DNA of 64,000 nucleotides. Origin: Kiloniellales bacterium (GTDB lineage: Bacteria; Pseudomonadota; Alphaproteobacteria; Kiloniellales; JAKSBE01). The position numbers were made by a program, and so were the translations under genes. Positions 7,570-36,359 of the stretch are shown here, in pieces (the first letter of the stretch is position 1; every line of letters begins with the position of its first letter). Location of the stretch: NCBI GenBank assembly GCA_030066685.1, contig JASJBF010000002.1:1-64000 (forward strand), read 5' to 3'. The notes beneath the pieces are model-generated. The model made no database searches. It was not told the DNA's origin and worked only from the letters and a program-made list of their open reading frames with translations.

Positions 7570-7599
7570 ACCCACGGCCAATTCAACAAGAGGGTGAAC

Positions 7600-7794: not shown

Positions 7795-7804
7795 GGAGGC
7801 TCGC

Positions 7805-8026: not shown

Positions 8027-8030
8027 CGCC

Positions 8031-8912: not shown

Positions 8913-8916
8913 GGTG

Positions 8917-12722: not shown

Positions 12723-12726
12723 GACC

Positions 12727-15649: not shown

Positions 15650-15661
15650 AGGGGTGAGGGT

Positions 15662-16381
15662 GTGGAAGGATTTCTGGCGCTCGGACTTCTGATCGGCATG
15701 CAGCACGCGCTTGAAGCCGACCACCTCGCGGCGGTCGGCACCATGGCGGCCGGCCAAGACGGAAGCAAAGGCCGCCTTGCCTTGCGCGGCGCGGTCTGGG
15801 GGCTGGGCCATACCGTCACGCTCTTCGCAATCTGCACGGCCGTGATCCTCTTGGGGATGAGCCTGACCGAACGGATGGCCGCGACGCTCGAGTTCGGGGT
15901 TGGCGTGATGCTGGTGTTTCTCGGTCTCGATGTCCTGCGCCGGATGCGTTCGCAGCGGATTCATTTTCACGCTCACGAACACGACGGCGGCCGCCCGCAT
16001 ATCCATGCCCACAGCCATCTGGGCGCAACCGCCCCCCACGGCCAGGACCCGCACGAGCACCGCCATCCCGAAGGTTTCCTGCTGCGGGCTCTGGTGATCG
16101 GCCTCGTCCATGGCGCTGCCGGCTCGGCCGGGCTGCTGGCGCTGGCCGTCGCCGCGACCCGGGACCCCTGGTCGGCCCTCGGCTACGTTGCAGTCTTCGG
16201 CCTCGGCTCGATTCTTGGCATGGCGGCGCTCTCTTTCGTCGCCGCCTGGCCCCTTAGGGCTGCGGAGCGCCACGCCAAGTGGCTGCACGGCGGCCTGTCG
16301 CTCGGCGCCGCGATGCTCGCCGTCGGTATCGGCTTCGACGTCATGGCTGAAACGGCGGCCAGGGCCTGGGGAGGCATTTGA
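15662..16381 (+). CDS. Nickel permease (NiCoT/UreH-type)
   Basis: 239 residues from GTG with a GGTGAGGG site. The first helix has HALEADHLAAVG, the HX4DH nickel signature of NiCoT transporters, and a second His motif sits in VHGAAGSAG. A cytoplasmic or periplasmic loop around residues 100-135 is packed with His (HFHAHEHDGG, HIHAHSH). About six membrane helices. It lies 12 bp after hypE and overlaps hypA by one base, so it supplies nickel for this enzyme. Confidence 0.88.
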   Translation: MEGFLALGLLIGMQHALEADHLAAVGTMAAGQDGSKGRLALRGAVWGLGHTVTLFAICTAVILLGMSLTERMAATLEFGVGVMLVFLGLDVLRRMRSQRIHFHAHEHDGGRPHIHAHSHLGATAPHGQDPHEHRHPEGFLLRALVIGLVHGAAGSAGLLALAVAATRDPWSALGYVAVFGLGSILGMAALSFVAAWPLRAAERHAKWLHGGLSLGAAMLAVGIGFDVMAETAARAWGGI

Positions 16382-16623
16382 TGCACGAGCTCGGCCTGAC
16401 TCGGAACGTCGTTGCGATCGTCGCGGAGCACGCCGCTGGGCGAAAGGTGCGACGCGTCCGGCTCGCCATCGGGCCGCTGGCCTGCGTCGAGCGACGGGCC
16501 TTGAGCTTCTGCTTCGACATCGTGGCCGAAGGGACGCCGCTGGCAGGCGCCGCGCTCGAGTTCCTCGATGCCGAGGGCGATACCTTTCTGATCAAGGATT
16601 TCGAACTGGAGGAGGCGGCCTGA
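16381..16623 (+). CDS. hypA: HypA homologue lacking the zinc domain
   Basis: 80 residues against the usual 113-118. The N-terminus MHELGL keeps His2 and Glu3, the nickel ligands, and the alpha/beta domain runs to GAALEFLDAEG. The next residues (DTFLIKDFELEEAA) correspond to the C-terminal strand and tail of normal HypA. The segment that should carry the two CxxC zinc motifs is missing, apparently by a clean in-frame loss; no Cys codons occur there in any frame. It overlaps the permease start-stop (TGATG) and hypB. Nickel delivery to HypB or HupL may still work, but Zn-dependent folding cannot. Confidence 0.88.
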   Translation: MHELGLTRNVVAIVAEHAAGRKVRRVRLAIGPLACVERRALSFCFDIVAEGTPLAGAALEFLDAEGDTFLIKDFELEEAA

Positions 16624-17510
16624 TGTGCGGAACCTGCGGATGCTCCGATCCGTCCAATGTCGTGACGCTGACCGATCCGGAGAGCGGCGCGCAATCCCAG
16701 TTGCGCCAGAACGCAATCGTCGGAAAGGATGGGGGCGACCCTCACCATCATCATGACCATGGTCACGATCATGGTCACGATCATGGCCATGGGCAGGCAC
16801 ACCATGACCACGACAAACCCCACGTGCACGGCCCGAACGGCGAGGTAATCTCGCTGGAACAAGCCGTGCTGGCCAAGAACGACCGGATCGCGGCGCGCAA
16901 CCGGGGTTGGTTCGAAGGCCGCGGCGTGCTGGCGATCAACCTTGTCAGCTCCCCGGGTGCCGGAAAGACGACCCTCCTGGAGCAGACCATCCGCGAACTC
17001 GCCGGTCGGGCCGAGATCGCCGTCATCGAGGGCGATCAGATGACCGCCAACGATGCCGAGCGCATTCGCGCGGCGGGCGCCAAGGCGATCCAAATCAACA
17101 CCGGCGCCGGCTGCCACCTGGAGGCCGATATGGTCGCCGAGGCGGTTCAGAAGCTGGATCCTCGTCCCGGCTCGATCCTGGTGATCGAGAACGTCGGCAA
17201 CCTGGTCTGTCCCGCCATGTTCGACCTTGGCGAGCGCATGAAGGTCGCCGTGGTCTCGACCACCGAGGGCGAGGACAAGCCGCTCAAGTACCCGCACATG
17301 TTCCGCGCCGCGGAGGTCGTGTTGATCAACAAGATCGACTTGGCGCCCTATGTCGACTTCGACGAAGCGCGCTGTGTCGGGAACATCAAGGCGGTGAACC
17401 CGGAGGCGGTCCTCTTTACGCTTTCCGCGCGAACCGGCGCAGGCCTGGCGGAATGGCTGGACTTTCTGATCGGCCGCCAGAGCGAAGCCTCAAACCGTGA
17501 AAGCGGTTAA
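16623..17510 (+). CDS. hypB: Nickel-inserting GTPase HypB
   Basis: 295 residues; ATG overlaps the hypA stop. It starts with the high-affinity Ni motif MCGTCGC, then a His/Asp-rich stretch (residues about 40-65) that can store nickel, then a G domain with Walker A SSPGAGKTT, the metal-site segment around NTGAGCHLEADM and NKID. It is the last gene of the hydrogenase cluster. GTP-driven nickel transfer to HupL is its family role. Confidence 0.97.
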   Translation: MCGTCGCSDPSNVVTLTDPESGAQSQLRQNAIVGKDGGDPHHHHDHGHDHGHDHGHGQAHHDHDKPHVHGPNGEVISLEQAVLAKNDRIAARNRGWFEGRGVLAINLVSSPGAGKTTLLEQTIRELAGRAEIAVIEGDQMTANDAERIRAAGAKAIQINTGAGCHLEADMVAEAVQKLDPRPGSILVIENVGNLVCPAMFDLGERMKVAVVSTTEGEDKPLKYPHMFRAAEVVLINKIDLAPYVDFDEARCVGNIKAVNPEAVLFTLSARTGAGLAEWLDFLIGRQSEASNRESG

Positions 17511-17656: not shown

Positions 17657-18240
17657 TCAGGCCGTCGCCTGCCCCTGGCCGGCGACATCCAAGCCTTGGC
17701 CTCCGCTCGTGCGGCCCGTCGGAGTCCGCGCCGTCCGCCTCAGATCCTTGCGCAGGTGCTTGACGCTGTAGCCGTTGAAAAGGTGGCCGAGCAGCCCGCG
17801 GTCGAGATCAGAGGTGCCGAAGACCAGTCAGCAATAGGAAATCTCAGGTTCATATTGCGCTCCATCATGATCGATTGATCGTGATGGGCGCGGTGGTGGC
17901 GTCTGATCGTGTTCACCAAGGAGCAGTGACGCACAAAGGCATTCTCTTCGATGTGACAGCAAAAATGCATGAACTCGTAGATCAGGTACATGGCGGTCGT
18001 CGTCGAGATGATCAGCCAGCCGACATTGGCTGAGATTACCCAGCCGGCAAGAATCGCAGGCAGAGCCGACAACAGGATGAAGACCACCAGCGCATAGGGT
18101 GGGAAGAAGGTGACCCGCCAGTCCCTGGACCCCGCAAAGCGCATCTCTTCGGCGGTGAAGAATTGATGGTGTGTCAGCGTATGGCGCGTATAGATCGCCT
18201 TGAGCGCGCGCTGACGAAGCGGCCGGTGCATGACGTGCGA
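17657..18240 (-). pseudogene. Fatty-acid hydroxylase/sterol-desaturase remnant
   Basis: The minus strand encodes a membrane di-iron hydroxylase fragment: LTHHQFF, two hydrophobic spans, YEFMHFCCH and RRHHRAHHD are the His boxes of this superfamily. The upstream end is missing, cut at the hairpin at 18241. Near 17817 the frame shifts by one base: after LRFPIADW, the homologous continuation (TSDLDRGLLGHLFNGYS) lies in another frame and runs to a stop at 17657-17659. The gene is therefore dead at both ends. Confidence 0.75.
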
Positions 18241-18334
18241 GAGACTGTCCGATTAGCTGTGTAAGCGAGTGATGTGCTTCCTCCTTCCAGGATTGAAGCA
18301 CATCACTCGCTTACACAGCTAATCGGACAGTCTC
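18241..18334. repeat. 94-bp perfect hairpin, MITE-like or IS-end junction
   Basis: Two 40-bp arms (18241-18280 and 18295-18334) are perfect reverse complements around a 14-base loop. The tips read GAGACTGTCCGATTAGC. The left arm abuts the broken hydroxylase gene and the right arm the 5'-truncated IS5 remnant. Perfect conservation implies recent origin. It may be two terminal repeats of an IS with the interior deleted, or a non-autonomous element. No target duplication is obvious. Confidence 0.85.
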
Positions 18335-18855
18335 CTTTTCGAGGCCTGCTCGGACGAGCCCGACATGGAATACGCCATGGTCGATGCCACCATCGTCAAG
18401 GTCCACCGCCATGGTCAGGGCGCAAAAGGGGGACTCAGAGCCAGGCCATAGGCCGCTCTAAGGGCGGCATGACGACCAAGATCCTCGCGCTGACCGACGC
18501 GCTCGGCAACCTGGTGCGCTTCGTGCCGCTGCCCGGCCACCGCTTCGATACGGTCCGCGTGCCGCCGCTCATCGACGGCCTCAGCTTTGAGGCGCTGATC
18601 GCCGACCAGGCTTTCGACAGCGACGCCATCCTCGCCGATCTGAACGAGCGTGGCGCCAAGATCGTCATTGCTCAGCATCAGCGCCGAACCAGAAAGCTAC
18701 CGATCGACGCGGAGATGTACAAATGGCGTCACCTGATCGAGAACTTCTTCTGCAAGCTCAAAGAGTTCAAGCGTATCGCCATGCGCGCCGACAAGACCGA
18801 CCAGAGCTTCAACGCCTTCATCTACCTCGCAGCTGCGGTCATAAACTCACGATGA
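18335..18855 (+). pseudogene. IS5-family (IS427-type) transposase, 5' truncated
   Basis: The C-terminal half of an IS5-family DDE transposase: QAIGRSKGGMTTKI, LIADQAFDSDAI and the catalytic-Glu region YKWRHLIENFFCKLKEF. The upstream part (MEYAMVDATIVKVHRH) lies in another frame; the switch occurs around the A4G5 run at 18423-18431, the kind of slippery site IS427 elements use for programmed frameshifting. The first half of the gene is missing at the hairpin. Confidence 0.85.
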
Positions 18856-20122: not shown

Positions 20123-20950
20123 TCAGCTGCGCGAAAAAGCCCAACGTACCAACCCAGGCGCCCAATAGGCGAGGTGGCGCGCGATTCTTTGTTTCGCTCC
20201 CAACGTGACGTCAGTGCCGGTTGCGAGCGCCTTGACCACTGCCTCTGCAACCTCTTCGGCCGTGCGTTTTGGCGGTTGTTGGCGCCGGCGCATGGCATCG
20301 CTGTAGCATTCTGGTGCTTTCGTCTGCCCGGAGGCGACAAGCCCCGGCGAAATCAGGGCGATCTCGATATTGGTGGAAGCGGTTTCCGCCTTGAGGCTCT
20401 GCATGATGCGCTCAAGGCCGGCTTTAGCGGCGCTATAAGCGGCGAAACCTGCCAGACCGAGAAGGGCATGGCCGGAGGTAATGGCGACGATCCGTCCCAT
20501 TTCCGACTGGCGCATGGCAGGAAGCAAGGCGCCGCAAAGGGCAATGAAGGCGCTGGTATTAAGCGCAATGGCATTGTGGACGGCTTTTGCCGGCAGGTCG
20601 GCGATGTATCCCCGGGGCGCCGTGCCGGCGCAATGCACAAGAACACCGGGTGTGCCGTCACAAGCCGCGGCAATCTCTTCGGTCAGCGCGGCAATGCCTT
20701 CCGTGTCCGTCAGATCGTAGGCGACGATCTTTCTCACTGCGTCCGAGCATACATTGTTGCATTCTTTCTGGGTCTCGATGAGACGGCCTTCATCTCGACC
20801 CAGCAGGATCAGGCGGTATTTTTCTCGGGCAAGCGCCACCGATACCGCTTTGCCGATGCCTGAGTTCGCGCCCGTTACCAACGCGAGGTCGGGGCGGGCG
20901 GGGAGGGAAACGCGTGTCATTCCATCGGCTGATTCGCCGTTGGCCGGCAT
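20123..20950 (-). CDS. Classical SDR oxidoreductase, possible DprE2-like partner
   Basis: 275 residues, starting at the ATG that overlaps the stop of the upstream FAD-oxidase gene (ATGA). It has the NAD(P) motif TGANSGIG, catalytic Tyr-Lys in YSAAKAG and a substrate Ser in ITSGHALLG. Because it is coupled to a DprE1-like oxidase, it probably reduces the 2-keto polyprenyl-sugar that the oxidase makes, as DprE2 does in mycobacteria. Sequence alone marks it as a generic SDR. Confidence 0.75.
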   Translation of the reverse strand: MPANGESADGMTRVSLPARPDLALVTGANSGIGKAVSVALAREKYRLILLGRDEGRLIETQKECNNVCSDAVRKIVAYDLTDTEGIAALTEEIAAACDGTPGVLVHCAGTAPRGYIADLPAKAVHNAIALNTSAFIALCGALLPAMRQSEMGRIVAITSGHALLGLAGFAAYSAAKAGLERIMQSLKAETASTNIEIALISPGLVASGQTKAPECYSDAMRRRQQPPKRTAEEVAEAVVKALATGTDVTLGAKQRIARHLAYWAPGLVRWAFSRS

Positions 20951-22353
20951 CACTTGACCTCGAAAATGCGGCGCGCCTGATCGGTCATAAAACGAAGCTC
21001 CGGGTCGACCTTTTCCTTCATTTCCCAGAACTTTGTCCACCCCGGATACATGGCCTTGAAATAGCGCGCCGGCAGCCGGTCATCCTTGGCGAGATAAACA
21101 AGCCCGCCGAGATCGAGAACGCGATCGTAAATCGCTTCGAGGCGGCGGTTCAGCTCGTCGTCGCGGAACCGGCGGCGCAGAATGTCGATGGAAAAGGAAT
21201 AGCCGTCCTGGGCGAAGCTGACCGGCCGATCATTGCCGCGTCGCCGCTTCAGGCCGGCCATCATCGAGGCGATGCCCTGCTCCTGACAAAGGCGTAATAC
21301 GCCCTGAAACGCCTCATGTCCGGCCTCGCGTGGAATCAGCGGCTGGCAGGTCACCAGCCCCTCGGGAAGATAGACGTAGTTGACGTTGGGGATCATGTTG
21401 TGGATGTAGATATAACTTGAGAAAAAGCGGTCGAATGTCGAGCCATTACCATACATGGCGCGGCCAAGCAGGTAGTGAGCCAGATTGACCCAGCGTACGA
21501 TGGCCGGGCGGAATATGGGTTTCATCGCCGACCAGAAATAGCTGCTTTCAATGACCCCGAACATCTTGGTGTTTGTGGTGAACATCCGGTCGACGTTGAT
21601 GCCGGTCAGGTCATAAGGCTTGTCGGACCAATGGGCTGTGGTCATGAAGCCGCGGCCCACAGAATTGCCGGGGGCAAAGGTATCCATCCATCCGATGGCG
21701 TAGTCAAATCCCCCTTCCTCCTCGTTATCGAGGATGTTCAGGGAGTCGAGCACCGTATGCGTGGAGGTTTTGGTGACCGTCAGGAAGGAGGACGGTACTT
21801 TCAGCAGTTGCAGCTTCACTTCGACGACGATGCCGAACAATCCCATGCCGCCGATCACCAGGTCGAACAGCGCCTTGTCGCTGTCTTCGTCAACCTCCAG
21901 CACCGTGTCATCGGCGGTCAGCAGCTTGAAGGCGCGGACGTGATCGCCGAAGCTGCCATTGCGCACGCCGTCCTTGCCGTGGATATCAAAGGAAAGCGCC
22001 CCGGCAAGCGTGACATCGAGACCGCCGGGTGCGCAGGGCACAACCCAACCCTTCGGCATGCTAAAGCGCAGCGCATCTGCGAATGTGACTCCCGGCTCGA
22101 CAACGATGAGGCCGGTTTCCTCGTCAAAGTCAAGAATCCGGTTGAACTTCTGAAGATCGATGGTGATCTCACCATTATTGAGGCAGGCATCCGCATGGCT
22201 GCAGGCATGACCACGCGGCGCGATCGTCATGCCCTTGTCGGTCGCGATTTCGAGGACTTTTTGACAATCCTCCAGCGAAGCGGCCTCGGCGGTCAGGCTA
22301 CGCGTACGGCATGTTCCTCCCCAGGCAGTGAGTTCGCGCTCTTCCAGCCTCAT
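20950..22353 (-). CDS. DprE1-like FAD-linked oxidase
   Basis: 467 residues of the VAO/PCMH flavoprotein family. It has a PRGHACSHAD FAD-binding loop, and LSFDIHGKDG, NGSFGDHVRAFKLLTADD and VYLAKDDR parallel mycobacterial DprE1 (DIHGKN, GSFGNHV, YTAKDS). The Lys of AKDDR matches the active-site Lys of DprE1. DprE1 oxidises decaprenylphosphoryl ribose at C2 on the way to the arabinose donor. The overlap with an SDR gene strengthens the assignment. Substrate here is inferred. Confidence 0.8.
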   Translation of the reverse strand: MRLEERELTAWGGTCRTRSLTAEAASLEDCQKVLEIATDKGMTIAPRGHACSHADACLNNGEITIDLQKFNRILDFDEETGLIVVEPGVTFADALRFSMPKGWVVPCAPGGLDVTLAGALSFDIHGKDGVRNGSFGDHVRAFKLLTADDTVLEVDEDSDKALFDLVIGGMGLFGIVVEVKLQLLKVPSSFLTVTKTSTHTVLDSLNILDNEEEGGFDYAIGWMDTFAPGNSVGRGFMTTAHWSDKPYDLTGINVDRMFTTNTKMFGVIESSYFWSAMKPIFRPAIVRWVNLAHYLLGRAMYGNGSTFDRFFSSYIYIHNMIPNVNYVYLPEGLVTCQPLIPREAGHEAFQGVLRLCQEQGIASMMAGLKRRRGNDRPVSFAQDGYSFSIDILRRRFRDDELNRRLEAIYDRVLDLGGLVYLAKDDRLPARYFKAMYPGWTKFWEMKEKVDPELRFMTDQARRIFEVK

Positions 22354-22393
22354 GATCAGGGCTCATCGCTTCAGGGCGGTCCGCCAGTATTCA

Positions 22394-23218
22394 TCAATCG
22401 CTTGAGTGGCTTATTTCAGCCCGGCCGGGCATGGTCCCGATCCACGGCAGGACCTTGTCCTCGACATCCGAGCGGGCCCAGCGGTGGAAGTGGACACCTT
22501 CTACAAACGGCTCGTTTTTCAGTGCGCGATAAAGCCGGAGGAGGTCGACCACGTTTCGGGCGATCTTCTTCAGCATGAAATCCCTGGCGGGGCGCTTTTC
22601 CGAATAGACAACCGGCAATTCGGCGACGCGCAGTCCACAGCGCACCGATCGGATCGTGAGTTCGGAATCGTACTGGCCGCGGGAGATCACACAGCGCTTG
22701 TCTATTGGCAGAATGGCTTCGCGGCGAAGCAGTTTGCAGCCATGGGTATCAGCACCGATATACTCGGTCAAGAGGCTGAGCATGGCGTTCAGTCCCCATG
22801 TCAGAAAGCGCCTATAGGGGCTCTGGCCATTCAAGACAGGATTGAGCCGCTTGGAGCCAATGATGAGATCGTAATGCTCCCGCGCCCGCCAGGCCCATGT
22901 CAGGAAAGGCACATCGTTCTCGTCAATCGGCATGATGAAGACATAAGGCGCTTCGGAGGCTCTGAGGCCGGCACGCATGGCTTTGCCGATATTCGGTTCC
23001 TCCAGCCTGATCGGCTGCGTCAGGGGCCAGCGTTCCTTGATCTCCTGAATGATCTGCGGCGTGCGGTCCGTGCTGCCATTGTCGACCAATATAGCATTCC
23101 AGCGGTCCGGGCCGACTTCTTCGTCCAACACCAAAGCCAGCTCTTCGACCTTTTCATATAAGATTTCCTGTTCATTCTTTAGCGGCACGACAATCGAGAG
23201 CTGAAGTGCTTGCATCAT
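22394..23218 (-). CDS. GT2 glycosyltransferase, dolichyl-phosphate-sugar synthase type
   Basis: About 274 residues. SIVVPLKNEQEIL opens a GT-A fold; DNGSTD and PIDEND are the nucleotide/metal sites; IGSKR follows. This matches DPM1/GtrB-like enzymes that put a sugar on polyprenyl phosphate, but without the C-terminal membrane helices. Start at the ATG pair 23218/23215; the longer frame runs into IS256 DNA, so the native upstream region may be lost. It is the first gene of the minus-strand operon with the DprE1-like and SDR genes. Confidence 0.82.
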   Translation of the reverse strand: MMQALQLSIVVPLKNEQEILYEKVEELALVLDEEVGPDRWNAILVDNGSTDRTPQIIQEIKERWPLTQPIRLEEPNIGKAMRAGLRASEAPYVFIMPIDENDVPFLTWAWRAREHYDLIIGSKRLNPVLNGQSPYRRFLTWGLNAMLSLLTEYIGADTHGCKLLRREAILPIDKRCVISRGQYDSELTIRSVRCGLRVAELPVVYSEKRPARDFMLKKIARNVVDLLRLYRALKNEPFVEGVHFHRWARSDVEDKVLPWIGTMPGRAEISHSSD

Positions 23219-23311
23219 GGAGAGCGGGTCCGTCTCGTCGTTGACTTTGTCGTTGGGCGATGTCCCGGTTTCTGTTGAAAAGTGAAAGGCAGGCATCGTC
23301 GGGACATGAAG

Positions 23312-23950
23312 CTATGCGGCCTCTTTGACGGTGTCGAGGGTGGATTTGGCTTTGGCGTTTTGCATGCTTTCCTCTGGGGCATTTTCGAGCGGCGGGAGCT
23401 GGCGGTAGGCCCTGAAGCGAGGAAAGCTCTTCTGGGCCTCCAGCAAGCCGGTCGGTCCATCTGAGCGCCATCTCGGCGTTGCACCAGTGCTTGACGTTGC
23501 CGCCGACGCTTCGCAGGGTGGTCACCGCGTTCTCGATGGCACTGGTGCAGACAAGGGCCCGCCGGAGCTCGTGCGGCAGGCCGAAGCGGATCACGGTGAG
23601 GATTTCGTCGAGCCCTTCCAGTATCGATCCCGACACGTCGGGCGCGTCGTGCTCGAAACGCCGGGCCAGGTTTTGCAGGAGCCGCTCGGCCTTCTCGGCG
23701 TCCTGCTGGTCCCCAGCCTGGTGCAGCGGCTTCTTGACGCCGGCGTGGAGATGCCCGTCCAGGCGGTCTGTGATGTTGCGGCCCTTGTGCATTTGGCAGC
23801 GCCAGATGGCGGCGGCTATCCCGAAGGTGTGGCGGATTGCCTTGGACTGCGCCCGCGCGCCGTCGACGATGGACAGCCGGGGGACTCCGGGCTCTAGGCC
23901 GCGTTCGATCAGGTTATCGATGAGGCTCAGTCCCCACGAGCGAACAGAGA
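23312..23950 (-). pseudogene. IS256-family transposase fragment
   Basis: Minus-strand frame with RLSIVDGARAQSKAIRHTF, RCQMHKGRN, ENAVTTLRSV and ALRWT, all typical of Mutator/IS256 transposases. The N-terminal half is missing and a frameshift near 23465 moves the C-terminus (GLLEAQKSFPRFRAYRQLP) into another frame, ending at 23312. It lies between the two divergent halves of the glycan locus. Confidence 0.85.
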
Positions 23951-24074
23951 CGACGGCATCCTGCGCCCTGGCCCAGAGGGTTCAAGTCGGCAACCCCCTC
24001 GGATGCCGAAAACTATCAAATCTTTCAGATGCATATGGCCCCAAACCAGCCAAACGGTGGGACACCAGCAATTT

Positions 24075-24103
24075 TTGACAGATGTCCTGCCCAATAATAT
24101 ATA
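24075..24103 (+). promoter_or_regulatory. Sigma-70-type promoter of sqdB
   Basis: TTGACA (24075-24080), a 17-bp spacer and TATATA (24098-24103). This is close to consensus and lies about 45 bp before the sqdB ATG. It sits downstream of the IS256 remnant in AT-rich DNA. Confidence 0.7.
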
Positions 24104-24149
24104 GATCGCTCGATAGGTGCTGATCAGTGTCCAGTCACGGGAAAATCGT

Positions 24150-25382
24150 ATGAGAGTTCTGATCCTTGGGGGTGATGGGTTTTGCGGTTGGCCGACATCG
24201 TTGCACCTGAGCCGGCAAGGACACGACGTCGTCATCGCCGACAACATGTCGAGGCGCAAGATCGATATCGAACTCGAGGTGGATTCCCTTACGCCGATCC
24301 AGCCCATGTCGGTCCGGTTGCAGGCTTGGCGAGAAGTTTCGAATGGGTTGATCGACTTTGTTTCAATCGATCTGGCGGAGAACTACCACCGCTTGTTGAC
24401 ACTCCTAAAAGAGTTTCAACCTGACGCGGTCGTTCATTTTGCCGAACAGCGCGCCGCGCCCTATTCGATGAAGAGCGCCTGGCACAAGCGCTACACCGTC
24501 GACAACAACACAAGTGTCACCAACAACCTGCTGGCGGCCATCGTCGAAGCTGGTGTCGATACCCACGTTGTGCACCTTGGTACGATGGGCGTTTACGGTT
24601 ACGGGACGGTTGGCGTTCCGATCCCTGAAGGCTATCTGGCCGTCAAGCTCACCACACCTAACGGCGAAGATGTGGAGAAAGACATTCTCTACCCCGCCAA
24701 TCCGGGCAGCATTTACCATCTAACCAAGACGATGGATCAGCTGATGTTTGCCTATTACAACAAGAACGACGGCATCCGCGTCACCGATCTGCATCAGGGC
24801 ATCGTCTGGGGCACGCATACACACGAAACTGCGCTCGACGAGCGTTTAATGAACCGCTTCGACTATGACGGCGATTACGGCACGGTACTCAACAGATTTC
24901 TCATGCAGGCCGCGGTCGGCTATCCCCTGACCGTGCACGGAACGGGCGGTCAGACGCGGGCCTTTATCCATATTCGCGATACAGTTCGCTGCATCCAGCT
25001 GGCGATCGAAAACCCGCCGGCGGCGGGCGACAGGGTGCGCATTTTCAATCAGATGACGGAAACGCACCGGGTGCGCGACCTGGCAAAGCTGGTCTCTGAA
25101 ATGACCGGTGCGCCGATCAATTACGTTCCCACTCCGCGCGTGGAAGCGGATGAGAACGAGTTGATGGTCGAAGGGGCCGGGTTGATCGAGCTCGGCCTTC
25201 GTCCAACGCGGCTGGAAACCGGGCTTTTGCACGAAGTCAGCGAGATCGCGACGAAGTACGCACACCGCTGCGACAAGAGCCGCATACCCTGCGTTTCCTA
25301 TTGGAACGAAACCGTCGCCAAGCGTGCGAAAGAAGCGGCAGATGAAGTTCGTGAAGGGCAGGGTCGAGAGTCTTTGCAGTAG
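24150..25382 (+). CDS. sqdB: UDP-sulfoquinovose synthase SqdB
   Basis: 410 residues of the extended SDR family. GGDGFCGWPTSLHL binds NAD, HFAEQRAAPYSM, the GTMGVYGYG loop and SIYHLTK hold the SqdB-specific residues, and FGTALNRF-like FLMQAAVGYPLTVHG follows. It converts UDP-glucose plus sulfite to UDP-sulfoquinovose. No SqdD/SqdX sulfolipid transferase is in the window. The neighbours are flippase-like and GT-C proteins, so the sugar may go to a surface glycan rather than to membrane sulfolipid. Confidence 0.9.
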   Translation: MRVLILGGDGFCGWPTSLHLSRQGHDVVIADNMSRRKIDIELEVDSLTPIQPMSVRLQAWREVSNGLIDFVSIDLAENYHRLLTLLKEFQPDAVVHFAEQRAAPYSMKSAWHKRYTVDNNTSVTNNLLAAIVEAGVDTHVVHLGTMGVYGYGTVGVPIPEGYLAVKLTTPNGEDVEKDILYPANPGSIYHLTKTMDQLMFAYYNKNDGIRVTDLHQGIVWGTHTHETALDERLMNRFDYDGDYGTVLNRFLMQAAVGYPLTVHGTGGQTRAFIHIRDTVRCIQLAIENPPAAGDRVRIFNQMTETHRVRDLAKLVSEMTGAPINYVPTPRVEADENELMVEGAGLIELGLRPTRLETGLLHEVSEIATKYAHRCDKSRIPCVSYWNETVAKRAKEAADEVREGQGRESLQ

Positions 25383-26428
25383 TGCGCCGGGATCACAGCA
25401 TCGATCCTGTTTCGGGCGGCATACGAGGGAAAGAGGTAGTGTCAGCTATTTCCGAACAAACGATAGAATACGATGGTGCTGTCGAAAAAAAACCTCGCAA
25501 AGTCAGTCTGAAACTCGTTCTTTTCAAAATTGCCATAACCGTAGGCCTGCTTCTGTTCCTTTTCAATAAAGTCGGGCTGGAGGGTGTGGCCGTCTACCTG
25601 AAAACCGCCGATCCAGTTGTTATCGGTCTTGCCGGTATTCTTCTTCTCACCCAGGTCGTCAGTTCAACGTTGGCGTGGTCGGTTTGCCTCCGGTTCTGCT
25701 GGGGGCCGGTAAGCCGGCTGAAACTGCTGCGCATCACCGCCATCGGCCTGCTCTTCAACCAGGTCCTGCCGGCATCAATTGGCGGCATCGCGAGCCGCAC
25801 CATCATGCTGACGCGTGACGGCGTGAAGCTGAATGCGTCCCTGGCCTCGATCTTTCTTGAGCGGTTTACCAACCTTCTGTCGCTGGCCGTTCTGGGCGCG
25901 CTCGGCTTTTTGTTGGCCTTTCATGCGTTGTCGAAAGACGCGGCCTTCAACACCATGGTCAATGGCGGTATCGCAGTCGTTTTGCTGACGATGGTTTTCG
26001 GCTTCCTGCGCATGAGCAAGATCATCAACTCGCTTCCCGATGCGGGCATCCTGTCAAAGGTGAAGCGGGCCTTGCGAAAAATCCGGGATTTCACTCAGGA
26101 CAGAAGGTCGTTCATCGCCGCCATGGCGTTCGGCTTCTGGTGGAACCTGGCGTCCGTCGTGGCGATGTATTTTTTCGCCGCGGCCGCCATTGTCGATGTC
26201 GCCTTTGTGCCCTTTGTTTCGATCGCGGCCATTTGCGTGATGTTCGCGGCCATCCCCATTTCGGTTTCCGGCTGGGGGGTTCGCGAGAGCGTCATGGTCG
26301 CCCTTATGCCGTTTGCCGGGATCACGCAGGAGCAGGCGTTTGCCATCTCCATCGTCTTTGGTGGCGTGCTCGTGCTCACCCGGCTTCCGGCCCTCATATT
26401 GCTTTGGCTTCCCAAAGATAAGAAATGA
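25382..26428 (+). CDS. Flippase-like membrane protein (LPG synthase TM/AglD family)
   Basis: 348 residues with about eight hydrophobic helices. LPASIGGIASRTIMLTRDG and PISVSGWGVRESVM are hallmark loops of the UPF0104 / lysylphosphatidylglycerol-synthase transmembrane family. Members without the soluble synthase domain often sit in glycan loci and are proposed to move lipid-linked sugars. The GTG at 25382 overlaps the sqdB stop; GTG 25439 is an alternative start. Confidence 0.8.
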   Translation: MRRDHSIDPVSGGIRGKEVVSAISEQTIEYDGAVEKKPRKVSLKLVLFKIAITVGLLLFLFNKVGLEGVAVYLKTADPVVIGLAGILLLTQVVSSTLAWSVCLRFCWGPVSRLKLLRITAIGLLFNQVLPASIGGIASRTIMLTRDGVKLNASLASIFLERFTNLLSLAVLGALGFLLAFHALSKDAAFNTMVNGGIAVVLLTMVFGFLRMSKIINSLPDAGILSKVKRALRKIRDFTQDRRSFIAAMAFGFWWNLASVVAMYFFAAAAIVDVAFVPFVSIAAICVMFAAIPISVSGWGVRESVMVALMPFAGITQEQAFAISIVFGGVLVLTRLPALILLWLPKDKK

Positions 26429-26522
26429 GGCTCCTCGAGGTTCCAAATGGAATCGGTTGAGTTCGTGAGGATCCGGTCGCATACCTCTGCGGTGGCGGGA
26501 ACCGGCGCTGGAGGGATGGACG

Positions 26523-27008
26523 ATGGAGGCCGGCGACGTGCTTGCTGCGCTTGGGTTGGGGATTGCGCCGCCGTGGCGGCTGATCGGCCGGCGTCTCGAA
26601 GCCGGTACGCGGCCGAACGAACTGCAGATGGAGGTTGCCGCCGATCGCGGCGCGCGGTTTGCCTGCCCGGAGCGCGACAGGCTGTGCGCGGCCCATGATT
26701 CCGCCCGGTTCACCTGGCGGCACCTGAATTCCTTCCAACATCATTGCTACATGACCGCCTTCATCCGCCGTGCCCATAACTGCCTCGCCGGCGAAGCCGT
26801 CTTGACGCCCGTCGCAAAGGCGCTCGAAACCTTCGAAAAGAATCTCCCACGCTGGACATCAACCCATAACATCGCTCGCATCGAGGGCCTCAACGGCCTG
26901 TTCCAGGCCGCCCGCGCCAGGGCCCGCGGATACCGAAACACCCACATCTTCACCACCATGATCTACCTCGTCGGCGCGCCACTCGGCGACACCTTCAAAT
27001 CCACCTGA
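26523..27008 (+). pseudogene. ISL3-family transposase with internal deletion
   Basis: The first 78 residues (MEAGDVLAALGLGIAPPW; the usual first zinc finger is degraded to CPERDRLC) and the last 80 (NIARIEGLNGLFQAARARARGYRN) belong to ISL3 transposases. The DDE core between them is missing, yet the frame stays open over the deletion. It separates the flippase-like gene from the YfhO-like gene. Confidence 0.85.
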
Positions 27009-27026
27009 GACGTCGAAGATCCAAGA

Positions 27027-30000
27027 ATGATCCACTCAGCTAACTGGATGCGAGGTTTTCGGCGCTTAAGCGAACGGCCCGGAGACTGGTGGCGTGAAAA
27101 CGCGGACATGGCCGCGGTATGCCTTCACCTGCTGTTCGCGCTCTTCCTGTTTTCGCCCTTTTTTCTGGCGGGCGGCATATTGGTCGGCAGCACCGACAGC
27201 CTGACCGTGAAGCTGCCCATGCTGTTTGCCGGACGGGATGACTTCTGGTCGGGCAGCATTTCTTTTTGGGACCGCTTTACGAACGCTGGCTCGAGCGTTG
27301 CCCTGTGCAGCACCTGTCCAGGCATTTACGCGCCCGAGAACTGGATTTACTACCTGCTTCCCCCCGCCTGGGGGCCCTCGGCAATGACGCTGATCTATAC
27401 GCTGAAATATGCGTTGGTCGGCATCGCCAGCTATTTCCTGTTGATCGAAGAAGTCAGGTCGCGCCGTTGGGCGCTCTTCGGTTCGGTGATGCTGGTCCTG
27501 AGCGGACGGGCGATCTGGGCGGTGACGACCCATGAAAATCTGACGGCTCTGCTTGCCGTGCTGATCGCGCTCTATCTGTTCTGGACGGCACATCGCCGGT
27601 CGTTGGGGATGACGGCCCTCCTATTGACCGTTGATCTGATTATTCTTGCCATGTCGCCGACGGCCAATGCGGCAGCCTACTGGTTCCTGGTGATCACGGT
27701 CTTCTTCCTCTATCGGATTGCAACCCAGAAGACACGGATTCCAAGCGCTACCTTGTTTTTGTTGGCGGCGAGCCTGTCGCTGCCGGTCGTTGCGTTCTTT
27801 CTGGCCCGCCTACTTCCCTTGCTCATGGACCTCCAGCATCTTTCGCAAACCGGATTTCAGAAGATTCGGTGGATCGATGAAACGCGGCTGGCGCTGCGCC
27901 TCTTTGTTCCAGAGGCTTTGGGCGTTCATTATTCGGCGTCGCGAACAATCACTACTCTTTTTCAACAAGGAGACATGAGTATCGATGGCGATTCACGGGA
28001 TTATTACGGATGGACCGTTCTTTTGTTGATATTTTTTCTTTTGGTCCTGCGCACAAATACCATCACAAAAAGACTTGTTTTTCTCGTGATTTTCGTAGCT
28101 ATCGCAGTAGCACTTAACTATTATCTGGAACCTTTTGAAACCTTGGCGCGGTTTGTTCTGGGGCCGCTTTTTCACCCCTCGTCCATCGATCATTTCATGA
28201 CGCTCGGGGTGGTTTTTCTGGCCGCCCATGCCGGAGTCATCGTGACCCGCCAAATCCGCTCCAGAGTGTCCCCCTTTTGGAATTTTTCACTCCTTCTGGT
28301 CGCTCTGTTCGTCATTCTTTATGTGTTCTGCATCTGGGTTATGGTCTGGTACCTCCAGCATGGTCTTGGCGAAGCCGTCATCATAACCCTGCCTTCTCTT
28401 GCAGCCTCTGCAGTGCTGATCACATTGGCCTATCGCTTCCGGACATTTGTTTTTCGGTGGTGGTGGATTTTCCCATTCATCCTGGCCGGCATAACCCTGC
28501 CGATTGCCTGGATCTTGAACGGGCTATCGAATCAAGGATATCACTTTCCAGATCATACGGTCGTTCTCGGCACCAGCTGGCTGGGGCTCGCGGCGATTAT
28601 CCTGTGGCTGTTCAGCATGTCGGAGAAAGAGCATCCGATCAGGGCCAAGAAACGGTCCAACACTGCCCTGGGACTGGCCGCCATCGCCGTTGTTTTCCTG
28701 ATCATTCCCTGGCGCCAGGATATCGGCGTTTCTTACGACCTATGGACGGCGGGCCGGATTGCCCTTGTTGGTGTGGCCAAGTTTGTTTCTGTCCTCATCG
28801 TCGGGGTTGCGGTCACGGTCTTTTACATCAAGCGGCGGATCTCGGCTCGCTCGTTCTGGATGCTCTTGCTGGCTTTGCTTGTCACGGAACAGCTGGTCGC
28901 CCTGAAGGTCCACAGCTTTCGCGTGATGAACCCGTTCAGCTTCGCCGACGCCAGACTCTATACGCCGCGGCCTCCTGTCAAAGGCATCGGGGGGGAACTG
29001 CTCCAAATGGATCTGGCGCGCTATCGAGTTGACGGGGTTGCCCAGCTAACGGGCATGCCGATCGTTGCGCAGCTCTATGGCACGGCGGAGCCGCTGACCA
29101 ATTTCGCCCGCCTCTACAAGCTGCCCTCAACCAGCGGAATCAAGCAGACCATTTCGAATCGCTTCCTGAAATTGGCGGACACGCTCGAGCCGGGTCTCAC
29201 CCGGCACGGGGCCCGCTGGTACGTGGGGACGCGGCCCAAGGGCCAGCGCTTTCTCGATCTGACCGGCGTAAAGTATGTTCAGGATCCTGAGTCCGGAGCG
29301 GTCATTGAGCGGCCGACGGCTCTCGCCCGTTTCATGTCTTTCGAAAATTGGGAGACGTTGTCGGTTGAAGAGGCGTTGAGACTGATCAGCAGTCCCGAGT
29401 TTGCGCCCCAAAATTTGGCGATCGTCAGCCGCATGCCAGCCGAATTGGAGAGCATCAATCTATCGTCCAGGCTCAATGCGTCTTTCGGCATTGAAGCTCT
29501 TGAGGATCCGGTGCGCGCTTGGTACTCCGATCCCGAGGTGGCATTGCCTCAATGGATCGCACTCACCTATTCCCGACCCATCAGAATGAACAGGATCACG
29601 CTGGCCGCCCAGGCTGTCGGCGCCTCCGGGGACGAACATCTGCGCGCGCCCAAGGATTTCGTGCTCCAGGGCAGTCTCGACGGGGAGCAATGGCGCGATA
29701 TCGTTACGGCGGAGGGGTGGCAATTTGGCAAGAACCGGGAACCGCGTTCTTTGAGCTTCAACAATGAAATGGAGTATCGGCATTACCGCCTTATGATCCT
29801 TAACAATGGGAATGGAGGCGGGCTGGTGACTGTCAATAGGTTTACCCTCGACTATCAGCCCGCGCCGCTCAACCCGTCTGAATCCTCAGCATCTGTCCTC
29901 GACTATCAGGAGGAACTGGGGGACAGGATTACCGTGGAAGTCAACGCAGAGAAGCCTCGCCTCGTTCTGTTCAACGATACCTATCACCCGGGTTGGAAGG

Positions 30001-30332
30001 CGTGGGTGGACGGTGTTCCCGCTCGGCTCGAAAACGTGAACTACGCCTTTATGGGCGTACAGGTGCCAAAGGGCGCAAAGCGGCTCACGCTTTCGTTCGA
30101 GCCCGTCTGGCGCGGCTGGATCGGCTGGTTGTTTTCATTGGCCACGGTGCTGGCCGTAACCGTCGTTGCGCTGTGGACATTTGCCCTCCCGCGTCTTGCG
30201 TCATTGAGCGTGGGGAAAATAACACCCATGACATTCAAATCGACAGCGCATAGCCGCAAAATTGCCGGTGTATTGGTGGCCGTCATGTTGGCGGTCGGTC
30301 TGCTGCGTATTCTGGTCGTCCCCCTGGGATGA
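27027..30332 (+). CDS. YfhO/GT-C membrane glycosyltransferase-like protein with discoidin-like region
   Basis: 1101 residues. The N-terminal 600 or so residues hold about a dozen membrane helices of the YfhO/GT-C type (loops such as STDSLTVKLPMLFAGRDDF and APENWIYYLLPP). A large extracytoplasmic part follows, including a stretch around residues 845-950 (RPIRMNRITLAAQAVG, KDFVLQGSLDGEQWRDI, HYRLMILNNG) like an F5/8 type C carbohydrate-binding domain. The end (DTYHPGWKAWVDG) is the YfhO C-terminal motif, then a final helix. GT-C enzymes use polyprenyl-phosphate sugars, matching the donor-making genes nearby. Confidence 0.8.
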   Translation: MIHSANWMRGFRRLSERPGDWWRENADMAAVCLHLLFALFLFSPFFLAGGILVGSTDSLTVKLPMLFAGRDDFWSGSISFWDRFTNAGSSVALCSTCPGIYAPENWIYYLLPPAWGPSAMTLIYTLKYALVGIASYFLLIEEVRSRRWALFGSVMLVLSGRAIWAVTTHENLTALLAVLIALYLFWTAHRRSLGMTALLLTVDLIILAMSPTANAAAYWFLVITVFFLYRIATQKTRIPSATLFLLAASLSLPVVAFFLARLLPLLMDLQHLSQTGFQKIRWIDETRLALRLFVPEALGVHYSASRTITTLFQQGDMSIDGDSRDYYGWTVLLLIFFLLVLRTNTITKRLVFLVIFVAIAVALNYYLEPFETLARFVLGPLFHPSSIDHFMTLGVVFLAAHAGVIVTRQIRSRVSPFWNFSLLLVALFVILYVFCIWVMVWYLQHGLGEAVIITLPSLAASAVLITLAYRFRTFVFRWWWIFPFILAGITLPIAWILNGLSNQGYHFPDHTVVLGTSWLGLAAIILWLFSMSEKEHPIRAKKRSNTALGLAAIAVVFLIIPWRQDIGVSYDLWTAGRIALVGVAKFVSVLIVGVAVTVFYIKRRISARSFWMLLLALLVTEQLVALKVHSFRVMNPFSFADARLYTPRPPVKGIGGELLQMDLARYRVDGVAQLTGMPIVAQLYGTAEPLTNFARLYKLPSTSGIKQTISNRFLKLADTLEPGLTRHGARWYVGTRPKGQRFLDLTGVKYVQDPESGAVIERPTALARFMSFENWETLSVEEALRLISSPEFAPQNLAIVSRMPAELESINLSSRLNASFGIEALEDPVRAWYSDPEVALPQWIALTYSRPIRMNRITLAAQAVGASGDEHLRAPKDFVLQGSLDGEQWRDIVTAEGWQFGKNREPRSLSFNNEMEYRHYRLMILNNGNGGGLVTVNRFTLDYQPAPLNPSESSASVLDYQEELGDRITVEVNAEKPRLVLFNDTYHPGWKAWVDGVPARLENVNYAFMGVQVPKGAKRLTLSFEPVWRGWIGWLFSLATVLAVTVVALWTFALPRLASLSVGKITPMTFKSTAHSRKIAGVLVAVMLAVGLLRILVVPLG

Positions 30333-30371
30333 GCGGAGCTCGTGAAATAAACAGTTGGATCAGGAACCGGT

Positions 30372-31187
30372 ATGCTGGACAGGTTGAAAACGAGACTCAA
30401 AGTGTGGGTCAAACGCGATATTCGGATATATGCGTTCGTTCGTCACAAGCTGATGCGGCTACCTTTTTTCCTGCCGCAGGATATCGACTACTACGCGCTG
30501 ACGGTGTTGTCCCTGGGCGATGGTCCGATCCTCGACATCGGCGCTAATGACGGGATCTCGGCCCGCTCGATCAACAAGCTGGTGCCAGGTCATCCCATCG
30601 TATCGATCGAGCCCAATTCCGTCTACCGGCCGGTCTTCGAAGAGCTGCAGCGAAAGCTTCCCGCTTTTCGCTTCGAAATGATCGCAGCAGGCGATGAGGA
30701 GGGGGAGATCGAACTGTACACGCCGATCTACCGCGGGGTTCCGATCACAGCCTATGCCAGTCATGACCCCGATGTCGCGACCGCCAATCTCAAACATGCC
30801 ATGGTCCATATCACCGATTTCGACAAGCATCTGACCTTCCGCTGCGTCAAGGTTCCCGTTCGCACGATTGACTCGCTCGCCCTAAATCCGTCATTCGTCA
30901 AGATCGATATCGAAGGCTTCGAGCATCTGGTGTTGCGCGGCATGAAGGAGACGTTGGCGCGGGCCCTGCCGGTCGTCATGATCGAGCATAATCCGCACAA
31001 TTTCGAAAAAAATCAGGAGATTTTGAGCCAGTTCGACTACCGCCCTTCGGTATTCGATTATGAGCGGCGCTCCTTCAAGTGCTATGACGGCGGCTCTCCG
31101 CTGAATATTTTCTTCCTGCCGCCGAGTGTGGCCTCCTCGAAAAGCTGGACCGAATCGAGTGAGAAAAGCCCGAAGGGATTGGTTTGA
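30372..31187 (+). CDS. FkbM-family methyltransferase
   Basis: 271 residues. ILDIGANDGISARSI is the SAM site, followed by VSIEPNSVYRPVFEEL and the FVKIDIEGFEHLVLRG motif of FkbM enzymes, which often methylate sugars in surface polysaccharides. It follows the YfhO-like gene by 40 bp and closes the glycan locus. The last 20 residues (Ser/Lys-rich) look like a run-on tail reaching the IS3 fragment. Confidence 0.85.
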   Translation: MLDRLKTRLKVWVKRDIRIYAFVRHKLMRLPFFLPQDIDYYALTVLSLGDGPILDIGANDGISARSINKLVPGHPIVSIEPNSVYRPVFEELQRKLPAFRFEMIAAGDEEGEIELYTPIYRGVPITAYASHDPDVATANLKHAMVHITDFDKHLTFRCVKVPVRTIDSLALNPSFVKIDIEGFEHLVLRGMKETLARALPVVMIEHNPHNFEKNQEILSQFDYRPSVFDYERRSFKCYDGGSPLNIFFLPPSVASSKSWTESSEKSPKGLV

Positions 31188-32900: not shown

Positions 32901-32999
32901 AATCGTTCGGATCGACCGGAGAAATACTCCAAATACATTGCCATATATATGAAACGATGCTCCACTATCCTCTCGACCGAACGGCGGGGAAGTTGGTCC

Positions 33000-34198
33000 A
33001 TGCACGGCGCAGCGGTTTCGCTCCGGGGTCTTCACAAGCATTACGACTCGACCCGGGTTCTAGCGGCAATCGATCTGGATTTCCAACCAGGTGAATTCCT
33101 GACCCTGCTCGGGCTGTCCGGCTGCGGAAAATCGACGCTCTTGCGATTGATCGCCGGCTTCGAAGCGCAGTTGGCGGGCAGCATCGAGATCGCGGGACGC
33201 CCCGTAGATGACCTGAGGCCCAAGGACCGCGGACTGTCGATGGTTTTCAGAACTATGCGCTCTACCCGCATATGACCGTATTCGACAATATCGCAATGCC
33301 TCTGATCATGCGGCAGCTCTCTTTTACGCGGCGCTTTCCCGGGCTCGGCCGAGCGGTGTCCGGTGCAAGGGCAAAGCGCTCCGAGGTCGAACGCAAGGTC
33401 CGCGCTGTCGCGGAGCTCCTGGAGATCGATGACCTCCTGTCACGCCGCCCGAGGCAGCTCTCCGGCGGCCAGCGCCAGCGAGTTGCGCTGGCCCGCGCGA
33501 TCGTGCCCGAGCCATCCGTGTTCCTGATGGATGAGCCTCTCTCGAACCTCGATGCTCGTTTGCGCCTTCAGATGCGCCAAGGACTGACGGATCTGCATAG
33601 AAAGCTGTGCATCACCTTTGTCTACGTCACCCATGACCAGGTCGAGGCGATGACTATGTCCGCGCGGGTGGCGGTGATGATGGATGGCGTCTTGCTGCAG
33701 GTCGGAACGCCCTTGGAGATCTAAGCCCGTCCTCTCGATCTTCGGGTCGCGCGCTTCACCGGCAGCCATCCGATCAACGTCTTTGAGGTAGGGGCCGGCT
33801 CGCGTGGTGTGCGGACGCTGTTTGGAAAGACCTTGCCGAAGGAGGTGAGTCCCTCCGCCACAGCGCCAACCACCGTAGCAATCCGGCCTGGGGATCTGCT
33901 GCTGCAGCGCTTGCAGACTGCCGGCTGCAAGGAACCCGTCTTCGAGGCCCGCATCGCCAAGGTGGAGGACCATGGGGCCGACCTTGTGATCCCTCTTCGC
34001 TTAGAGGCCGACCCGCATACCCCCGTCGCGCTCCGCATTGGGGCGTCCCATCGTGATGAGATTGCGAGCCTGGCCGGCGGTCTTTGTCGGATCGTCGCAC
34101 CGATCGAGCGGATGCATTTCTTCGATGGAAGCGGCCGGCGAATTGAGTGCGACACGGGCTCGGTACTGCCGCTGCCGGCAATCGGGCTCAGCGCATGA
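33000..34198 (+). pseudogene. Sugar ABC transporter ATPase (UgpC/MalK type), two lesions
   Basis: Walker A LSGCGKSTLLR, signature [14 protein letters not shown], Walker [16 protein letters not shown] and the switch His in THDQ show a complete CUT1-type ATPase with TOBE region. Two defects break it. Near 33249 one base is missing in the Q-loop (VFRTM instead of [11 protein letters not shown] in the next frame). At 33722-33724 a TAA replaces the Tyr codon in the usual GTPLEIYARP. The tail stays open to 34198. No functional protein is expected. Confidence 0.9.
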
Positions 34199-34983
34199 CG
34201 GCGCTCGGCGCAGACTCTTCTGACACGCCCGCGTCCCGGGCTTTGCGCCCGGCTGGACGGCCCCATGCGAGGACGTTCTCGCTCTTCGCTTACGCCTTCG
34301 TCGCGCCGGCCGGTCTGCTCCTTCTCGCGCTGATTCTGCTCCCTTTGATCAGCGTGCTGATCCTCAGCGCTACCGATTACATTCTAGCAGAGATCCGCCT
34401 CTCGTTTGTCGGGCTGAAAAACTATCAGAAGCTCTTGGCAGATGCCGGGGCGCGGCGCGCCCTCGGGAACACGCTCGTCTACGTCGGCATCGTCATGCCG
34501 GTCTCGGTCGCGCTCGGCCTCCTGTTGGCCCTGCTGTTGCATCGGCGAGGCCGCAGCCGTCGCTTCTACGAGGTCGTCTTCTTTCTACCCGTGACCAGCA
34601 CCATGGTCGCGATGGCGGTGGTCTGGCAGTACCTATTGCATGGACGTATTGGTCCGATCAATGCGGTCCTTGCCGGAATTGGCTTCCCGCGCCTGGATTT
34701 TCTTACCGATCCCGAGATCGCCCTCTACGCTCTGGCCGCTATCGGTGTCTGGCAGTTGACCGGCTTCACTATGGTTTTGTTCCTCGCCGGTCTGACCGCA
34801 ATTCCTAATGAGGTCTATGAGGCGGCGGCGCTCGACGGCGCCGACCGCGGCTTCGAACGCTTCTGGCGTATCTCCTGGCCGCTTCTGGCGCCGACGACCT
34901 TGTTCGTTGTCGTCATCACCTCGATCACGGCCTTCCAGGTCTTCGACACCGTCGCCGTGCTGACCCAAGGCGGCCTGATCTAA
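34195..34983 (+). pseudogene. Sugar ABC permease (UgpA/MalF type), truncated by IS3
   Basis: 262 residues with five or so membrane helices and the EAA loop EAAALDGADRGFERFWRIS, which docks the ATPase. ATG overlaps the ATPase stop. The frame ends in VLTQGGLI at the left edge of the IS3 element; family members continue about 35-40 residues with the last helix. The partner permease and binding protein are not found beyond the insertion. Confidence 0.85.
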
Positions 34984-35012
34984 GCGAGGATCTGGCTCAT
35001 CTGGGTTGATCT

Positions 35013-35992: not shown

Positions 35993-36014
35993 TCTTGGTC
36001 GTCCCCATCCGCGA

Positions 36015-36359
36015 TTACGCTTTTTTGAGGAGGCGGTTTTCCAGGGTGAGGTCGGCCACGACTTCCTTGGGGTCACGCATCTCCCGGCGCAGGTTCGTGA
36101 CCTCACCGGAAGTGGCCTGACGCTCGGTATCGCCGGTGAGCCGGCGCCTGCCGGCTTCAAGGAGCTCCTTCGACCAGCTGTAGTAGAGGCCCTGCGCGAT
36201 CCCCTTACGCCGGCACAGCGCCGCAATGGAATACTCCCCGCGGAGGCCCTCCAGAACGATCCTGATCTTCTCTTCAGCGGAGTACTTGCGCCGAGTCCTG
36301 CGGCGAATGTCTTTGACGTGCTTCTCGGCCGTCTCCTGCGGCCCGGATTTCTGTCTCAT
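36015..36359 (-). CDS. IS3-family OrfA
   Basis: 114 residues: basic N-terminus, HTH (RKYSAEEKIRIVLEGL, CRRKGIAQGLYYSW) and a leucine-zipper-like C-terminus (EVTNLRREMRDPKEV, LTLENRLLKKA). It is intact while its orfB partner is broken. OrfA alone binds IS ends and represses transposition. Confidence 0.85.
   Translation of the reverse strand: MRQKSGPQETAEKHVKDIRRRTRRKYSAEEKIRIVLEGLRGEYSIAALCRRKGIAQGLYYSWSKELLEAGRRRLTGDTERQATSGEVTNLRREMRDPKEVVADLTLENRLLKKA

Follow-up and report, generated by a model that had tools for sequence, protein, structure and literature searches.

Organization of the gene island

The window analyzed here is a stretch of 64,000 nucleotides from a Kiloniellales bacterium (contig JASJBF010000002.1). 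It contains an island of seven genes in two operons (Table 1). The minus-strand operon encodes a family 2 glycosyltransferase (GT2), an oxidase that binds flavin adenine dinucleotide (FAD) and a short-chain dehydrogenase/reductase (SDR). The plus-strand operon encodes SqdB, a flippase-like membrane protein, a 1101-aa YfhO-like protein and an FkbM-family methyltransferase. The oxidase is related to DprE1, a tuberculosis drug target known to act with DprE2 as the carrier-lipid ribose-to-arabinose epimerase. An initial annotation of this DNA had read the island as a parallel to mycobacterial arabinan synthesis. Our results point instead to a separate branch of DprE1-family oxidases that neighbors GT2 genes and may act on hexoses.

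Table 1. Features of the island in window coordinates (ORF, open reading frame; IS, insertion sequence)
Feature	Coordinates	Strand	Basis
SDR reductase, proposed oxidase partner	20123..20950	-	adh_short 2e-39; ORF opens 21040
DprE1-family FAD oxidase, GT2-linked type	20950..22353	-	FAD_binding_4 6e-26; DprE1 structures 7.5e-44
GT2, proposed polyprenyl-phosphate sugar synthase	22394..23215	-	Glycos_transf_2 (PF00535) 6.7e-14; ORF opens 23296
IS256 transposase remnant, between both operons	23172..23792	-	NF033543 8e-14, C-terminal part only
SqdB-type UDP-sulfoquinovose synthase	24117..25382	+	SQD1 structure 1.1e-97
Flippase-like membrane protein	25382..26428	+	LPG_synthase_TM 5.5e-37; TIGR00374 60.8 bits (cut-off 43.2)
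ISL3 transposase remnant, between flippase and 1101-aa gene	26523..27008	+	DDE_Tnp_ISL3 2.6e-07, C-terminal part
1101-aa YfhO-like protein, proposed extracytoplasmic GT-C transferase	27027..30332	+	YfhO 34.6 bits (cut-off 28.5)
FkbM-family methyltransferase	30372..31187	+	Methyltransf_21 2.5e-17; TIGR01444 above cut-off

All seven genes are open at these coordinates, with no internal stop. The minus-strand genes are packed. The GT2 and oxidase genes are 40 bp apart, and the ATG of the SDR gene shares the A of the oxidase stop codon (TGATG). Judged from the sequence, this ATG is the most likely SDR start, giving a product of 275 aa, rather than the opening of the ORF. The GT2 start is at 23215 or 23218, and the ORFs of the GT2 and the IS256 remnant overlap in different frames. 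On the plus strand, the SqdB and flippase genes share one base (TAGTG), and the gap between the 1101-aa and FkbM genes is about 40 bp. Past the SDR gene there is an integrase-core transposase gene.

The oxidase and SqdB were both absent from the two genus mates (E 1e-15), so the island is patchy. The initial annotation had proposed looking for the same gene set in relatives. The full set was found together in no other locus, and 0/20 SqdB neighborhoods contained the oxidase.

The oxidase belongs to the DprE1 family

The best match of the oxidase in the PDB was DprE1 (E-value in Table 1). Its score against the NCBIfam DprE1 model was 266.7 bits, below the equivalog cut-off of 500; L071, a relative linked to UbiA, likewise stayed under this cut-off (375.4). 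Against a profile of 29 relatives it scored 306.7 bits. In a careful tree with three proteins of the vanillyl-alcohol oxidase (VAO) superfamily from the same genome as outgroup, the oxidase grouped with the DprE1-family rows (support 83/83), and quick trees with two same-genome VAO proteins gave a support of 100. By its sequence, the oxidase is a member of the DprE1 family and not another VAO enzyme. The coupling of a DprE1-like oxidase to an SDR, as initially annotated, is upheld by the PDB match and the TGATG overlap, and in the trees the oxidase did not cluster with other VAO enzymes, the outcome that would have counted against that annotation.

Matches to the oxidase were found in 10/142 other genomes of relatives at E 1e-40 (best identity 34%) and in 12/397 others of the phylum sample at 1e-45. 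No close relative was present in the collections searched (relatives, phylum sample, genome contigs), the best identity being 34%, nor in viral contigs. With the single oxidase protein as query, genome contigs gave 22 pattern matches and 0 relatives.

Pocket positions are altered in a GT2-linked branch

Residues were numbered as in M. tuberculosis DprE1, from the PDB-match alignment. We take H132, K134, W230, Q336, K367 and K418 to be catalytic-core positions, and Y60, D318, W323, Q334 and V365 to be pocket positions. In the window oxidase all six core equivalents are retained. In contrast, the equivalents of Y60, D318, W323, R325, Q334 and V365 are altered; the residues at Y60/D318/W323/Q334/V365 are H/N/V/T/G. 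Among 46 alignment columns invariant in the 29 first relatives, the window oxidase alters 16 and the oxidase of locus L182 alters 15. They share 11 altered columns versus 5.2 expected if independent (hypergeometric 2.5e-4). Cys387, whose role in DprE1 is described in the available text of PMC6015584, is Ser in the window.

The comparison was extended to 55 places, the window and 54 loci, with reading frames picked by profile. Loci whose contig coordinates showed them to repeat a place already counted were merged with it (L197, L198-L206, L208, L202, L222-L229, L236, L239, L242-L244), and L247, whose residues gave no single readable frame, was omitted. A search with a profile of five oxidases gave 42 matching genomes (G417, G669, G577, G599, G640, G551 and G535 left out), and 7/62 plasmid records were examined. 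The six core residues were retained in 55/55 places. D318, W323, Q334 and V365 were changed in all six oxidases of the GT2-linked type (window, L182, L211, L212, L213 and L246) and invariant in the 49 others. The split at Y60 was less clean, with alteration in 4/6 GT2-linked oxidases and also in L214 and L249.

The six GT2-linked oxidases form one side of a branch (support 100/99 for five; for all six, SH-aLRT was 98, the same value as for the five that remain without L182). An early pairing of the window and L182 oxidases was unstable when either was omitted; a stable group required the addition of L211-L213 and L246. The branch, to which oxidases of five other genomes belong, is unusual and seems undescribed.

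GT2 replaces UbiA beside the altered oxidases

UbiA is the ribose-loading synthase in DprE1 systems. It was present in 26/30 of the first DprE1-family neighborhoods, the exceptions being L180, L182, L191 and L193; the L193 neighborhood stops at a contig edge. Within 3 kb, UbiA was found near 0/6 GT2-linked oxidases versus 44/49 others (Fisher 1.6e-5). A match to a GT2 profile, which includes the GT2 of the window itself, was nearby in 5/6 versus 2/49 (Fisher 3.5e-5), and the sixth, L182, has a Pfam GT2. At about 14 of the ordinary-type places the flank was just ~1.5 kb, at a few shorter still, and neighbors could be missed at these places.

In L182, the GT2 (PF00535, with two hydrophobic stretches at its end) adjoins a DprE2-type SDR and the oxidase. 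Searches with the L182 oxidase also retrieved L211, where GT2, oxidase and SDR have the order and strand of the window, and L212 and L213, where two more genes lie between the GT2 and the oxidase-SDR pair. The profile of five oxidases retrieved L246, where the pair has a divergent GT2 350 bp off. The oxidase-SDR pair recurs in 5/5 of these loci. By a rough hydropathy count, a large multi-helix protein without a Pfam family is near the oxidase in L182, L212, L213 and L246, and none was seen in L211.

Two further features of these neighborhoods were noted. In L214 and L249, the oxidase is of the canonical type with Q at the Y60 position, and UbiA is missing from the 3 kb around it. A B12-binding radical SAM gene (L182, 3174-4637) lies directly upstream of the L182 GT2, and a similar ORF was seen by eye in L212 and L213.

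The SDR of the window is not DprE2 by profile. It scored 82.2 bits and ranked 46 of 57 in a ranking listed as every fourth row, among generic SDRs. Apart from that of L182, the SDRs of the other GT2-linked loci (4/5) likewise scored just 58-100 bits when compared with ordinary DprE2 references.

These results bear on the arabinan parallel. One could suppose that polyprenyl-phosphate ribose, supplied by a UbiA encoded elsewhere, is converted to arabinose here. The DprE1 family of the oxidase agrees with this, and other contigs of the genome contain five unassigned matches to the UbiA family. However, no UbiA-type synthase is present in the island or within 3 kb of the oxidase, GT2 occupies its place, the four pocket positions constant in 49/49 ordinary oxidases have been altered, and by profile the SDR falls outside DprE2. 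Thus, the pentofuranose parallel is unsupported, and we give an arabinan-like product very little chance.

The oxidase and SDR might alternatively yield a 2-keto or otherwise oxidized lipid-linked sugar, or use another hydroxyl. The altered pocket and the generic SDR would suit such a product. The two genes are, however, translationally coupled, and the pair is kept in all five other loci, as in DprE1/DprE2. We consider such a product quite improbable, and epimerization remains our preferred reading.

The GT2 is linked to SqdB

The structure model of the GT2 had a pLDDT (predicted local distance difference test) of 90.9 (47 sequences). ArnC, DPM synthase or GtrB, which load sugars onto polyprenyl phosphate, made up 13 of its top 14 PDB matches, with template modeling (TM) scores of 0.61-0.68 and ~20% identity. 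From this model, we propose that the GT2 is a polyprenyl-phosphate sugar synthase, in line with the initial annotation.

The GT2 type of the window occurred in 1/384 other genomes of the class sample. Among the matches listed for the named genomes, its relatives had identities of 52% and 45%, then 32%. The two closest of these (loci L095 and L096) have an SqdB gene 3.6 and 2.7 kb away, which is 66-68% identical to the window SqdB, and multi-helix proteins accompany the GT2 and SqdB in both. SqdB relatives of at least 60% identity occurred in just 18/384 other genomes of the class, so the GT2-SqdB pairing is unlikely to be due to chance.

Against the NCBIfam UDP-sulfoquinovose synthase model, the window SqdB scored 337.5 bits, below the equivalog cut-off of 575. 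It is 60-62% identical to SqdB of four plasmid operons that also encode a GT8 and an NAD-dependent oxidoreductase (sqdB-sqdD-sqdC type), and like them it retains the T, Y and K residues named in the available text of PMC4388408. In the sqdBDC operon, SqdB adds sulfite to UDP-glucose, according to the accessible part of PMC11346425. The idea that SqdB relatives at 60-73% identity form a separate non-sulfolipid clade was ruled out by operons of the sqdB-sqdD-sqdC type in that range. SqdD is beside SqdB in 6/30 of the SqdB loci compared, the window included in the comparison. Neither sqdD nor sqdC adjoins the window SqdB, and a search without a positive control gave no sqdD match in its genome at 1e-5.

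SqdB adjoins a reductase of 3'-phosphoadenosine 5'-phosphosulfate (PAPS) in two further glycan-gene loci on plasmids, one of them L250. PAPS reductase is a source of sulfite. In L250 (Pelagovum pacificum plasmid NZ_CP065916.1, 8016-15787), SqdB and PAPS reductase are followed in a row by a GT2, a LAB_N protein and a 525-aa protein; this is possibly a second candidate set for three-component glycosylation with sulfoquinovose. A motif of SqdB reads GTMGVYGYG in the glycan loci (L095, L096, L250, L251 and the window; n=5) versus GTMGVYGYS in the sqdBDC-type operons (n=4).

Two modules acquired separately could also lie side by side here, GT2-oxidase-SDR and SqdB-flippase-YfhO-FkbM, joined by insertion sequences and sharing no product. 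Transposase genes or remnants flank the operons and lie between them, the genus mates have neither the oxidase nor SqdB, and the full set was found in no other locus. In contrast, the GT2-SqdB pairing is found in both close GT2 relatives among the matches listed, and the plus-strand operon has a flippase and a transferase but lacks a loading enzyme, which the minus-strand operon supplies. An unrelated pair of modules seems improbable to us.

A different view keeps the same core and changes the sugar: the GT2 would load an ordinary hexose, such as glucose, the oxidase and SDR would give its C2 epimer, and the sulfosugar of SqdB would be used elsewhere in the same glycan. No SqdB was found in the fetched sequence of the five other GT2-linked oxidase loci, and their GT2 types are unlike that of the window; the oxidase type as such therefore needs no sulfosugar. 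In addition, SqdB is encoded on the strand opposite to the GT2-oxidase-SDR trio, and an IS remnant separates them. On the other hand, the GT2 type of the window itself is near SqdB in both close relatives listed. We regard an ordinary hexose as somewhat unlikely. It is more likely that SqdB makes the sugar loaded by the GT2 than that it makes a second sugar. The sulfonated sugar of the initial annotation is kept in this reading, through the GT2-SqdB link.

Flippase-like, YfhO-like and FkbM proteins

The flippase-like protein belongs to the TIGR00374 family, not to GtrA. The match of the 1101-aa protein is to YfhO, for which an extracellular transferase role in CsbB/GtcA/YfhO systems is proposed in the available text of PMC7389260 and PMC5836110; an F5/8 type C domain was below the cut-off. 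Both the TIGR00374 and YfhO matches are above cut-off, the second over ~60 residues only, which agrees with the initial annotation of a flippase-like protein and leaves the GT-C role putative. The predicted transferase role of the 1101-aa protein is the weakest family call of the island.

Proposed pathway

We propose that the island encodes an extracytoplasmic glycosylation system of the Gtr/CsbB type to which a lipid-linked epimerase has been added. SqdB would convert UDP-glucose and sulfite to UDP-sulfoquinovose, and the GT2 would transfer what is probably sulfoquinovose to polyprenyl phosphate. The DprE1-family oxidase would then oxidize a hydroxyl of the lipid-linked sugar, presumably at C2, and the SDR would reduce C2 from the other face; if the reaction is an inversion rather than a simple oxidation, the product would be polyprenyl-phosphate 6-deoxy-6-sulfo-mannose. 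FkbM may O-methylate the lipid-linked sugar. The TIGR00374 protein would help it across the membrane, perhaps by flipping, and the YfhO-like protein would transfer it to a putative acceptor outside the cell.

We estimate the probability of the whole chain, in which polyprenyl-phosphate sulfoquinovose is made, epimerized at C2, flipped and transferred, at about 0.4. Its core, modification of a GT2-loaded polyprenyl-phosphate hexose by the DprE1-family oxidase, appears reasonably likely. The broader statement is more doubtful. It joins C2 epimerization of a polyprenyl-phosphate sulfohexose to 6-deoxy-6-sulfo-mannose for an extracytoplasmic glycan with a second DprE1 branch acting on GT2-loaded hexoses and not on UbiA-loaded ribose.

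Besides the five UbiA-family matches and the SDR score given above, several results weigh against this pathway. The Fisher p-values ignore relatedness, the canonical-type oxidases of L214 and L249 also adjoin a GT2-profile match, and the six GT2-linked oxidases are long branches flagged by the tree program. The GT2 has no plain DXD motif and reads PIDEND. In the other loci compared, the GT2-SqdB and GT2-oxidase linkages occur apart. No oxidase was found in the L096 locus (10 kb either side) or, at E 1e-15, in G260, a 92% complete genome with the contig matching L095; besides the absence of SqdB from the fetched sequence of the five other loci, the L182 genome has no SqdB at 1e-15. As for the transferase, the YfhO match spans residues 966-1026 only, its structure model had a pLDDT of 39, and no relative was found at E 1e-20 in 288 other genomes.

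Comparison with known systems

The oxidase resembles that of DprE1/DprE2 systems (M. tuberculosis and UbiA-linked proteobacterial relatives) in its catalytic core, its SDR partner and the logic of a lipid-linked substrate. Unlike them, the island has a GT2 for UbiA, a changed pocket and an SDR outside the DprE2 family. A three-component pentofuranose pathway with UbiA and DprE1/E2 has already been described (PMC11127046, available text). It parallels the scheme proposed for the island in carrier-lipid loading, an epimerase on the lipid-linked sugar, a flippase and GT-C transfer. However, these systems use UbiA-type ribose loading and MATE/SMR-type flippases, whereas the island has the GT2 and the TIGR00374 protein. 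Its authors state in the accessible text that further epimerases in systems for O-antigen side chains were not known to them. The Gtr and CsbB/GtcA/YfhO systems combine a polyprenyl-phosphate GT2, a flippase and a YfhO-type transferase, the roles predicted for three proteins of the island; as far as the available parts of PMC11127046 and PMC7389260 go, they have no oxidase/SDR epimerase, and their flippase is of another family.

For the sulfosugar, the SqdB identity and T/Y/K residues are as in the sqdBDC sulfolipid operon (PMC11346425, accessible part), in which, unlike the window, sqdD and sqdC adjoin sqdB. The Agl3 N-glycan pathway of Sulfolobus also uses UDP-sulfoquinovose for a surface glycan. 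It belongs to another organism group with other transferases, and the available text of PMC4388408 describes no DprE1-type step. In the literature searched, which left most subscription papers outside, no description of a GT2 with a DprE1-type epimerase, or of carrier-linked sulfoquinovose, was found.

If true, a DprE1 branch that travels with GT2 and differs in its pocket would imply that hexoses on carrier lipids can be epimerized too, which would widen the sugars displayed by Gtr-type systems. It would offer a testable predictor, a GT2 or UbiA neighbor together with Q or not-Q at position 334. The sulfosugar part, if true, would extend the bacterial uses of sulfoquinovose beyond sulfolipid.

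Other features of the window

At 32949-36359, an ABC transporter ATPase is split across a pair of overlapping ORFs that both contain a portion of ABC_tran, and a permease ORF stops shortly before transposase pieces. At 17740-18855, a partial DDE transposase ORF has as its neighbor a 163-aa ORF with no Pfam match, perhaps a gene fragment. The region at ~2258-17510 resembles, by eye, a hydrogenase and Hyp maturation cluster.

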